Below, one piece after another: positions 9,059 through 13,240 of a DNA stretch of 32,355 nt. The DNA is from Oscillospiraceae bacterium (GTDB lineage Bacteria > Bacillota > Clostridia > Oscillospirales > Ruminococcaceae): contig JAQXHO010000105.1 of assembly GCA_029007315.1 (NCBI GenBank), positions 1 through 32,355 of the forward strand, in the 5' to 3' direction. Every line of letters starts with the position of its first letter. Position 1 is the stretch's first letter. Made by a program: the position numbers and the translations under genes. The notes beneath the pieces are model-generated. The model worked only from the letters and a program-made list of their open reading frames with translations, searched no databases and was not told the origin of the DNA.

Positions 9059-10651
9059 TTATTTTGCGTAATCAACCACACGGCTTTCACGGATAAGATT
9101 GATCTTGATCTGACCCGGATAGTCCATTTCTGTTTCGATCTGCTTTGCAATCTGACGTGCAACCAGAACCATCTTCTCATCATTGATAGCTTCCGGTACA
9201 ACCATAATACGTATCTCACGTCCTGCCTGCAGTGCGTAACACTTTTCAACACCCTCATATGCTGAGCATATGCTTTCAAGCTTCTGAAGACGCTTGATGT
9301 AGTTTTCGTAGTTTTCGCTTCTTGCAGCAGGTCTTGCAGCAGAAATTGCGTCAGCCGCCTGTACTATACAAGCTATAGCTGTCTTAGGCTCAACATCATT
9401 GTGGTGAGCTTCAACTGCATGGATAACCTCAGGGCTTTCGTTGTAGCGCTTGCATACGTCCACACCGATCTGTACGTGAGAGCCTTCGATCTCAGCTGTA
9501 AGAGCCTTGCCGATATCATGGAGAAGACCTGCACGACGTGCAAGGTTTGCGTCAACTCCAAGCTCAGAGGCAAGTATGCCGGAAAGCTTTGCCACTTCAA
9601 TAGAGTGATTAAGCACATTCTGGCGGTAGCTTGTACGGTAATACAAGCGTCCCAGCAGCTTTACCAGCTCATTGTTGATACCGTGTACGTTTGTTTCCAG
9701 AACGGCACGTTCGCCCTCCTGGCGGATACGGTGTTCAACCTCACGCTTTGCCTTTTCAACCATTTCCTCAATCTTTGTGGGATGAATTCTGCCGTCGGCA
9801 ATAAGCTTTTCCAGTGCGATACGTGCTATTTCACGGCGTACATGGTCGAAGCATGAAAGTGTGATAGCTTCCGGAGTATCGTCAATTATAAGATCAACGC
9901 CTGTAAGGGTTTCAAGAGTACGGATATTGCGTCCTTCACGGCCGATGATTCTGCCCTTCATCTCATCATTGGGAAGAGCAACTACTGAAACGGCTGTTTC
10001 CGAAACCTGATCCGCAGCACATTTTGCTATAGCCAGTGAAATGTAATTTCTCGCCTTTTCCTCGCATTCGTCCTTGAGATTCTGCTCATAGGCAGTGATC
10101 TTCATGGCTTTCTCATGAACAAGCTCATTTTCCAGTGTGTTCAGAATGTATTCCTTTGCCTGGTCACGGGTAAATTCAGAAATACGCTCCAGAACATTCA
10201 TCTGGTCATTCTTGAGAGTTTCAGCTTCAGCAAGCTTTTCATCGGCAGCCTTCAGCTTTCTCTGGAGATTTTCTTCCTTGCGTTCAAGGTTATCCGTCTT
10301 CTTGTCCAGAGTTTCTTCCTTCTGCTGAATGCGTCTTTCCTGTCTGCCTATCTCGCTTCTGCGTTCCTTAATTTCCTTTTCAGCCTCTGTGCGGAGCTTA
10401 TAGATCTCGTCCTTAGCTTCCACCATTGCGCTTTTCTTCTTGTTTTCTGCGTCTTTTTTTGCGTCAGCAAGGATTCTGCCGGCTTCCTTTTCCGCTGAAC
10501 CGATAGCCGCTTCTGCCTGCTGTTTGCGCTGTTCAATGCCTGCTTCCACGCCCTTTTTATAGGAACTCTGCTTTATTATCAAAGCTCCCGCAGCAAATCC
10601 GGCTATCAAAGCAGCCGCACCGATAACAACCGCAATCCAAATTTCAATCAT
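9059..10651 (-). CDS. rny: ribonuclease Y (start trimmed to MIEIWIAVV)
   Basis: N-terminal TM, long coiled coil, KH ([15 protein letters not shown]), HD (GLLHDIGKA); AAGGAGG upstream of ATG at 10651. Confidence 0.96.
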
Positions 10652-10680
10652 TTGTGTGCACAACCTCCTTATAATTCTGC

Positions 10681-10965
10681 TTAGTATATCATCGTACAAG
10701 CATCAGGGCGGTATGTGCCGCTATTCTTATTCATTGATGTAAACCTTTCCCTGCAGTGCCAGGGAAAAGGCAGTCCTATTCTGTATGTTCCTCACTTCCC
10801 GTCTTTCAGAAGACGATTATGAAAATTTACGGCAGCTCTGCCAAAAGCCCATTGGGGCTAAAAATCTATGAATCAAGTCAGCTTCACATACTGCACTTCA
10901 TGAAAACAACTGCCTGCGAACAATTCACAGTACATATTGCATATCTTGTAATTTTATACAGCTCT
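10681..10965 (-). ncRNA. candidate structured RNA / long leader between metG and rny
   Basis: Nested complementary segments read by eye: 10684-10688/10955-10959, 10695-10700/10945-10950, 10768-10774/10909-10915, 10783-10788/10886-10891, 10791-10797/10875-10881 (one mismatch), plus local hairpins at 10708-10721, 10744-10770, 10800-10815, 10831-10842, 10846-10859. Confidence 0.5.
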
Positions 10966-10968
10966 TTT

Positions 10969-10997
10969 ATTGTACACTTTTTTCTCAATATTGTCAA
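10969..10997 (-). promoter_or_regulatory. near-consensus sigma-A promoter upstream of the structured RNA/rny
   Basis: Minus strand TTGACA-17 nt-TACAAT. Confidence 0.8.
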
Positions 10998-11043: not shown

Positions 11044-12987
11044 TTATCTCACCTTTGCACCGCAGGGCAGGCTCTGATCCGGGAATACTACCTTTGCGCT
11101 GCCGTCAGCTGCGTCTGCCGCACATATCATGCCGTTGCTCTCAACGCCGCAGAGTTTTACAGGCTTCAGATTTGCAACGATCATTACCTTCTTGCCGATA
11201 AGATCCTCAGGCTTATACCACTGAGCAATGCCGGATACCACCTGTCTGCCGCCCATACCGTCATCAAGCTGGAGGCAAAGCAGTTTCTTGGACTTCTTCA
11301 CCTTTTCGCATTCCAGAACCTTTGCAACTCTCAGGTCAACCTTCATAAAATCATCAAATTCGATTTCATCCTGTGCAGGCTGAACTTCTATCTTTTCTTC
11401 CTCCGGTTCCTTGGGAAGATTGTTTTTGATGATTGCGTTCAGCTCCTCAATTTCCTTTTCAACGTCAATTCTCGGGAAGATGATATTGCCTTTCTTCACC
11501 TGTACATCACTGCGGAGAACGCCGAATTTTCCTGCATTTTCGTATGTTCTTTCGCTTTCAAGGGCGCCTATCTGCTCCCAGACCTCAGGCATGGTTGTAG
11601 GCATGAATGCTGAAAGAAGTGTGGAAACGATTCTGATAGTATCAAGGAGATTGTAGAGAACTGTTGCAAGGCGAATCCTGTTTGCCTCATCTTTAGCAAG
11701 TACCCATGGTGCAGTTTCGTCAATATACTTGTTTGCACGAGAAACCACCTTAAATATTTCAGCCAGTGCAAGGTTCAGCTGCGTCTGGTCAATGAAGCCG
11801 TCTACAGCATCTCTCAGACCTGTTGCCGCCGCAATGAGTTCATCGTCAAATTCTCCTGCCTGACGTTCAGAAGGCAGTTTTCCGCCGAAATATTTGTCCA
11901 CCATTGCGACTGTACGTGAAACAAGATTGCCAAGACCGTTTGCCAGGTCGGAGTTTATGCGATTTATCATTATTTCATTGGAGAATGAGCTGTCTGCACC
12001 CAGCGCCATTTCACGCAGAATGTGATAACGGATAGCGTCTGCGCCGTAACGCTCTCCCAGAACCAGCGGGTCAACAACATTGCCCAGGGATTTTGACATC
12101 TTCTGACCATTGAATGTTATCCAGCCGTGTACAGCAAGATGCTTTGGCAGAGGCTGTTCCAGTGCCATGAGCATTGCAGGCCAGATAATTGCATGGAAAC
12201 GCATGATGTCTTTTGCAACCATGTGAACATCAGCCGGCCAGTAGTCGTTGTAATCATTGTAAGCGTCATTATAGAAGCCCAGTGCGGAGATATAGTTGGA
12301 AAGAGCGTCTATCCATACATATACAACGTGCTTTTCGTCAAATGTTACCGGAATGCCCCATGTGAATGAGGTTCTGGATACGCACAGGTCCTCCAGACCC
12401 GGCTTTATGAAGTTGTTTACAAGCTCGGTTGCTCTTGTCTTCGGCTGTAGATAGTCGGTTTCTGTCAGAAGCTTTTCGATACGGTCTGCAAAGGGTGACA
12501 TTTTGAAGAAGTATGCCTCTTCCTTTGCTTCAACAACATCTCTGCCGCATTCGGGACATTTGCCGTCAACAAGCTGTGAATCCGTCCAGAAGCTCTCGCA
12601 GGGTGTGCAGTACTTGCCCTTGTATTCGCCCTTGTAGATATATCCCTTGTCGTAGAGTTCCTTGAATATCTTCTGTACTGTTTCAATATGGTAATCGTCT
12701 GTTGTACGGATATAGCGGTCATAGCTGATATTCATGTACTTCCAGAGATTCTTGAAAACTGCAACTATTTCGTCAACATATTCTTTCGGAGTAACGCCCT
12801 TTTCAGCGGCTTTCTGCTCGATTTTCAGACCATGCTCGTCTGTGCCTGTCAGGAACATTACCTCATTGCCCTGCATTCTGCGGTAACGTGCTATTGAATC
12901 ACAGGCTACTGTTGTATAACAGTGTCCGATATGTGGATTTCCCGAGGGATAATAGATTGGTGTGGTTATATAATATTTTTTACACAT
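11044..12987 (-). CDS. metG: methionyl-tRNA synthetase with C-terminal tRNA-binding domain (start trimmed to MCKKYYITTPIYYPSGNPHIGH)
   Basis: HIGH and KMSKS signatures (QKMSKSLGN), CTPCESF..CPECGRD zinc knuckle, C-terminal DFMKVDLRVAKVLECE domain. Confidence 0.96.
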   Translation of the reverse strand: MCKKYYITTPIYYPSGNPHIGHCYTTVACDSIARYRRMQGNEVMFLTGTDEHGLKIEQKAAEKGVTPKEYVDEIVAVFKNLWKYMNISYDRYIRTTDDYHIETVQKIFKELYDKGYIYKGEYKGKYCTPCESFWTDSQLVDGKCPECGRDVVEAKEEAYFFKMSPFADRIEKLLTETDYLQPKTRATELVNNFIKPGLEDLCVSRTSFTWGIPVTFDEKHVVYVWIDALSNYISALGFYNDAYNDYNDYWPADVHMVAKDIMRFHAIIWPAMLMALEQPLPKHLAVHGWITFNGQKMSKSLGNVVDPLVLGERYGADAIRYHILREMALGADSSFSNEIMINRINSDLANGLGNLVSRTVAMVDKYFGGKLPSERQAGEFDDELIAAATGLRDAVDGFIDQTQLNLALAEIFKVVSRANKYIDETAPWVLAKDEANRIRLATVLYNLLDTIRIVSTLLSAFMPTTMPEVWEQIGALESERTYENAGKFGVLRSDVQVKKGNIIFPRIDVEKEIEELNAIIKNNLPKEPEEEKIEVQPAQDEIEFDDFMKVDLRVAKVLECEKVKKSKKLLCLQLDDGMGGRQVVSGIAQWYKPEDLIGKKVMIVANLKPVKLCGVESNGMICAADAADGSAKVVFPDQSLPCGAKVR

Positions 12988-13240
12988 AGTGTATTTCCTC
13001 CTTGACGGTATTTTTGTGCAATGCACTTTATCTTTTATTATAACACATATTTTCCCTTTTGTCACCTAAAAAATCAAAATTTTATGGTTGATTAATATTC
13101 CTATTGCAATGTCCGTCCTCCGCATACAAGCGTATTCTACAAATAAACAGACTTAATTTAATGAAATTTGTGGGAAATAACAGTTGATTTTTTCGCTGAA
13201 ATCTAATATACTATAATGTATGCAATAATTTGAAAGGAGT

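Follow-up and report, generated by a model that had tools for sequence, protein, structure and literature searches.

RNase Y is the main initiator of mRNA breakdown in many Gram-positive bacteria (Firmicutes) and sets global mRNA turnover there. According to the literature found, how its own level is set has been worked out only in Bacillus subtilis, where RNase Y was shown experimentally to cut its own leader and to feed back on rny (PMC10303841). The sites of RNase Y have no strong sequence consensus, AU-rich and weakly structured positions being preferred (PMC11780869). In the case of RNase E, a stem-loop of rne is bound by the enzyme, which promotes cleavage elsewhere (PMC10303841). A literature search found no earlier account of a clostridial rny leader with structure. 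The window analysed here, a stretch of 32,355 nucleotides from the genome of an uncultured Ruminococcus related to R. callidus (contig JAQXHO010000105.1), contains a structured leader that, judged from its sequence, probably controls the amount of RNase Y made. The locus comprises the following features:

9059 to 10651, minus strand: rny, encoding RNase Y (530 aa; RNase_Y_N, KH, HD), with its ATG at 10651-10649.
10969 to 10997, minus strand: sigma-70-type rny promoter, TTGACA-17-TACAAT, with 11 of 12 consensus matches.
11044 to 13065, minus strand: metG, the upstream neighbour, outside the element.

The promoter, already pointed out by the initial annotation, lies about 45 nt past the metG stop, and rny starts about 300 nt further on. 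From the position of the promoter relative to the rny ATG, the mRNA is predicted to start at about 10962 and to carry a leader of about 310 nt, in which no sizeable ORF was present, as the annotation had also stated. The promoter is conserved next to rny in relatives and is kept within the genus as TTGACA..AAAAAAGTGTACAATAAAAGAGCTGTAT; metG adjoins the rny leader in this genome only, among the genus loci compared. When the 620 nt preceding the SD were scanned in 112 rny leaders of the family, promoters with at least 11 of 12 matches were found in 108, against 0.5% expected from resampled sequence. The median length of these 112 leaders was 283 nt, with extremes of 63 and 582 nt. Long leaders with a promoter of their own are therefore a general feature of rny in the family; the structured core itself is common to R. 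flavefaciens-group leaders and those of the window's genus. Scanning the minus strand revealed no intrinsic terminator after the closing stem P1 and before the rny SD. As in RNase-autoregulatory leaders, the leader directly precedes the gene of the nuclease, and no terminator intervenes. Minus-strand terminator-like matches at 10930 and 10843 were rejected as a transcription attenuator, having weak T tails and lying far from the rny SD.

The leader region folded better than its shuffles (-88.2 kcal/mol, z -2.45, 0 of 100). A DNA search of 16 genus genomes recovered the leader in nine, always just 5' of rny; named relatives of the window's Ruminococcus include R. callidus, R. flavefaciens and R. 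albus. Altogether about 45 homologous Ruminococcus leaders were collected, all preceding rny, and none was found elsewhere in the searched genomes. A covariance model built solely from R. flavefaciens-group leaders (R1) had its best match within the searched 2.5 kb at the window leader (10651-10908, 20.7 bits, E 4e-4, the E-values of this model coming from a short calibration), placing E1, P3, E2 and the SD of the window in register. R1 also matched four other close members of the genus. Among 398 family genomes, ten gave one match each, all directly 5' of rny, and no match outside the family was obtained in 295 genomes of the order. That the element is a conserved cis leader of rny is hardly in doubt. 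The leader is experimentally tractable; it occurs in cultured strains of R. flavefaciens and R. callidus, and its helices are explicit targets for mutation.

Applied to 29 leaders of the R. flavefaciens group, RNAalifold independently returned a single nested rod around a variable domain, consisting of P1 (UUGUAU/AUACAA), P1b (AUUAC/GUAAU), P2, formed by E1:E2, and P3 (UUUUA..UCAU/AUGAAUAAAA). The window contains helices in the same order, namely P1 (GUAUA..UACAAG/CUUGUA..UAUAC), E1:E2 and P3 (AUUCAU/AUGAAU), and its elements are, from 5' to 3' of the transcript:

10945 to 10959, minus strand: P1 5' strand, GUAUA-AAAU-UACAAG, kept in 7 genus leaders, with an equivalent helix in the 29 R. flavefaciens-group leaders.
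10881 to 10894, minus strand: E1, SD-mimicking 5' arm GCAGUAUGUGAAGC and putative antisequestor, pairing with E2 in the window MFE and in the R1 register.
10868 to 10876, minus strand: P3 5' strand, UUGAUUCAU, from conservation, RNAalifold and the R1 register.
10735 to 10867, minus strand: variable distal domain, with local hairpins at 10846-10859, 10831-10842, 10800-10815 and 10746-10767.
10726 to 10734, minus strand: P3 3' strand, AUGAAUAAG, from conservation, RNAalifold and the R1 register.
10707 to 10721, minus strand: E2, putative switching element GCGGCACAUACCGCC, partner of E1 or anti-SD, covarying with both E1 and E3.
10684 to 10700, minus strand: P1 3' strand, CUUGUA-CGAUGA-UAUAC, from closing-stem conservation and RNAalifold.
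10658 to 10668, minus strand: E3, rny Shine-Dalgarno and spacer GGAGGUUGUGC, forming 10 pairs with E2.

The split closing stem was among the complementary segments listed in the initial annotation, and is both present and conserved in genus relatives. Two other proposed pairings, AGGCAGU/ACUGCCU and CUGACUU/AAGUGAG, are not conserved as pairs. In the fourth, GUAUGU/ACAUAC, the nesting proposed there matches GUAUGU with the inner ACAUAC at about 10787, which reads ACAGAC in several relatives; the conserved partner is CACAUAC at about 10711-10717, and this pairing yields the covarying helix. What had been missed is the second role of the CACAUACCGCC element, its complementarity to the rny SD region. 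The distal-domain sequence is conserved inside the window's genus and different in the R. flavefaciens group, and the stretch from E1 to E2 measures 68-428 nt with a mean A+U content of 66% (44 leaders). One leader (L019, G003:C57) carries an additional hairpin of about 50 nt within the 5' strand of the closing stem. In the window, a 17-codon frame without an SD runs over P3, E2 and P1 (10734-10681, minus strand); this frame is not conserved.

Besides E1, E2 is complementary to E3, the duplex always containing one A.G mismatch and, in most cases, a single bulged base. E1 resembles E3 (GGCAGUAAUUGC versus GGAGGUAAUGC), as it should if the two compete for E2. In most Ruminococcus leaders, no stretch within 150 nt forms a better duplex with the SD region than E2. 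The pairing z-score of the SD region was -1.76 in 49 rny leaders, against a background of -0.16 for 148 further genes at the same loci; single-locus values are modest, and what convinces is only the recurrence and covariation of this pairing.

Covariation was computed on 16 distinct E1/E2/E3 triplets. For E1:E2, two-sided changes were present in 9 of 12 pairs. For E2:E3, 94.4% of cells were paired and 13 cells had two-sided changes, which were confined to few pairs (3 of 10). The covariation score of E1:E2 was 0.374 versus 0.201 in shuffles (0/500), falling to 0.006-0.142 when the strands were slid, and that of E2:E3 was 0.245 versus 0.153 (0/500); as the leader sequences are related, these shuffle counts overstate significance and are not probabilities. 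Swapping partners between species weakened both helices, the own and permuted means being -12.15 and -10.02 kcal/mol for E1:E2 and -10.65 and -9.56 kcal/mol for E2:E3 (0/5000 each). Changes on separate branches are a safer argument for covariation than shuffle counts. On the RNase Y tree, concerted E2/E3 changes occurred on at least three branches, namely the window/R. callidus clade (100/98), L130/L132 (100/99) and L104 inside a supported clade. L104 displays a triple change, with E1 UGC>UAC, E2 GCA>GUA and E3 UGC>UAC. The initial annotation had made its RNA candidate depend on compensatory changes in homologous rny upstream regions, and these were found for both E1:E2 and E2:E3. Its suggestion of a cis-leader controlling RNase Y gains support from the invariable position 5' of rny, the lack of a terminator near the SD and a covarying candidate SD sequestor.

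The leader thus contains a sequestor complementary to the SD and an antisequestor that excludes the sequestor helix, each with covariation. On these comparisons of sequence, E2 likely pairs with either E1 or the rny SD, the two pairings being mutually exclusive. Folding predictions for 45 leaders were consistent with such competition. The full leaders had a mean of 6.9 expected pairs for E1:E2 and 4.0 for E2:E3, and deletion of E1 in silico raised E2:E3 from 4.0 to 9.6 bp. In the window leader, the same deletion increased E2:E3 from 2.1 to 8.0 and decreased SD openness from 0.66 to 0.46. The mean drop in SD openness was modest (0.37 to 0.29), with the SD more open in the presence of E1 in 34 of the 45 leaders. 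For a sizeable minority of species, E2:E3 was predicted to be favoured even with the leader complete, and L016 and L017 made weak use of E2:E3 even without E1.

The best explanation, which we favour with some reserve, is that the cis-acting rny leader is a bistable translational switch. Because E1 and E2 are transcribed before E3, E1:E2 would form first during transcription, and the default state would have the SD free and translation on. If E1 were lost or occupied, E2 would sequester the rny SD and RNase Y synthesis would fall. Excess RNase Y might be what brings this about, by cutting the variable, AU-rich loop that joins E1 to E2; E1 would then be detached, translation turned off and a negative feedback closed.

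RNase Y as the trigger of the switch is a tentative proposal, and the specific form in which its cut severs E1 from E2, so that E2 hides the rny SD, is more tentative still. The leader sequence has no feature that singles out RNase Y for this part. The enzyme is favoured on three grounds: in B. subtilis, RNase Y is known to cleave the leader of its own mRNA and to repress rny (PMC10303841); an inter-arm loop of such AU content and variable length suits a cleavable linker better than an aptamer; and the sites that RNase Y prefers are AU-rich and weakly structured (PMC11780869). The initial annotation had mentioned autoregulation of RNase Y through its leader as speculation; autoregulation is known in B. 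subtilis, but not through such a structure (PMC10303841). If the cleavage-triggered version is true, the RNA senses nuclease activity and reports it as a change in translation or mRNA fold.

Binding without cutting, in which RNase Y or another protein would stabilise one fold of the structured leader, is an unlikely alternative that nevertheless has a precedent in E. coli, where RNase E acts with a hairpin of the rne leader (PMC10303841). In its favour, the distal hairpins and the single strands beside them are well conserved within the genus. Against it, the distal domain of the genus is unlike that of the R. flavefaciens group, and some leaders have a much smaller one (inter-arm distances of 68 nt in L124 and 106 nt in L109). 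Since the distal domain varies and shrinks in this way, a common protein-binding site would need to be in the rod.

Outside the genus, six leaders from other family genera (L043, L044, L049, L052, L055 and L059) have CCUCC(G) shortly 5' of the rny SD, complementary to GGAGG, apparently forming other SD-hiding hairpins. Several of the six have a common hairpin, CUUCUAUGGCUGAAUAGAAG, followed by UUUUCAUAUAUU. Shorter leaders (L048, L053, L056, L058 and L061) share a small hairpin, UUGUA-UCUU-UACAA or a near version of it, and after it UUUCAUAUUA or a sequence like it; they may thus have a site for processing or binding in common. One record labelled Alistipes senegalensis (L135, JAMPEF010000018.1) has a Ruminococcus-type rny and leader and a tree position with R. 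flavefaciens relatives, and the assembly is probably mislabelled or mixed.

An RNA thermometer or passive tuning, with E2:E3 merely limiting translation and E1 belonging to a stability structure that protects the 5' end, has a similarly small chance of being correct. It would accord with the similar energies that the two pairings have in many species, and the CCUCC elements near the SD in other genera suggest that a partly hidden SD has been selected for repeatedly. In the other direction, the covariation of both pairings and the mimicry of the SD by E1 point to a switch, and temperature in gut and rumen is near-constant.

A small-molecule riboswitch, with an aptamer between E1 and E2 and with E2:E3 as the expression platform, is improbable. 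Two exclusive folds acting on an SD are the usual layout of translational riboswitches, but the lineages share no conserved aptamer core within an inter-arm domain of 68 to 428 nt, and the controlled gene is a nuclease rather than a metabolic gene. Neither riboswitch nor T-box families of Rfam 15 matched the leader, in agreement with the initial annotation, which had recognised no such motif. More broadly, no Rfam 15 family matched the window or 16 rny loci at gathering or relaxed thresholds (E<=10), and the idea of an undescribed RNA holds in that respect. The best sub-threshold scores, 16.1 bits for SpF25_sRNA and 23.4 bits for a greA leader, were on the wrong strand or had chance E-values.

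That the element is an independent small RNA, 6S-like or otherwise, which merely happens to lie before rny, is very improbable. Its own promoter and a stem closing the 5' and 3' ends would suit such an RNA; against it, no terminator occurs from P1 to the rny SD, the element always lies 5' of rny, covariation links E2 to the rny SD and Rfam gave no match. The divergent 6S RNA considered in the initial annotation can be set aside, as the 6S model (RF00013) had no match to the leader at gathering or E<=10 and the arms enclose several variable hairpins. A 6S candidate lies at another locus of the same genome (L033, G000:C44:12793-12995; E 9e-6, with 36 bits against a cut-off of 46.4 and so below it). 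Attenuation of rny by translation of a leader peptide (MNKNSGTYRP...) across E2 was rejected, for although an ATGAAT within P3 opens a short frame in many leaders, the ATG has no SD and the frame is not kept, varying from 4 to 53 codons and shifting among close relatives.

Compared with known systems, the leader is like 6S RNA (RF00013) in its paired 5' and 3' ends, its length of about 200-300 nt and its own promoter, but is multibranched and unmatched by that model. With rne5 (RF00040), whose model also gave no match to the leader, it has in common that a major decay endonuclease would be controlled through its own structured 5' UTR; the enzyme and the phylum are different. The B. subtilis rny leader precedes the same gene, is 164 nt long, exerts partial autocontrol through the 5' UTR and has an SD that can enter secondary structure (PMC10303841). 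There, in contrast, many cuts fall in the leader and early ORF with trimming by RNase J1, and no conserved rod or E1/E2 switch is described (PMC10303841). Translational riboswitches and r-protein leaders have the same antisequestor-sequestor-SD logic with mutually exclusive helices, whereas the present leader has no recognised ligand core, precedes rny and has a large variable inter-arm domain. The rny leader would appear to work like known SD-sequestering switches and nuclease leaders, but fits no described family that was found.
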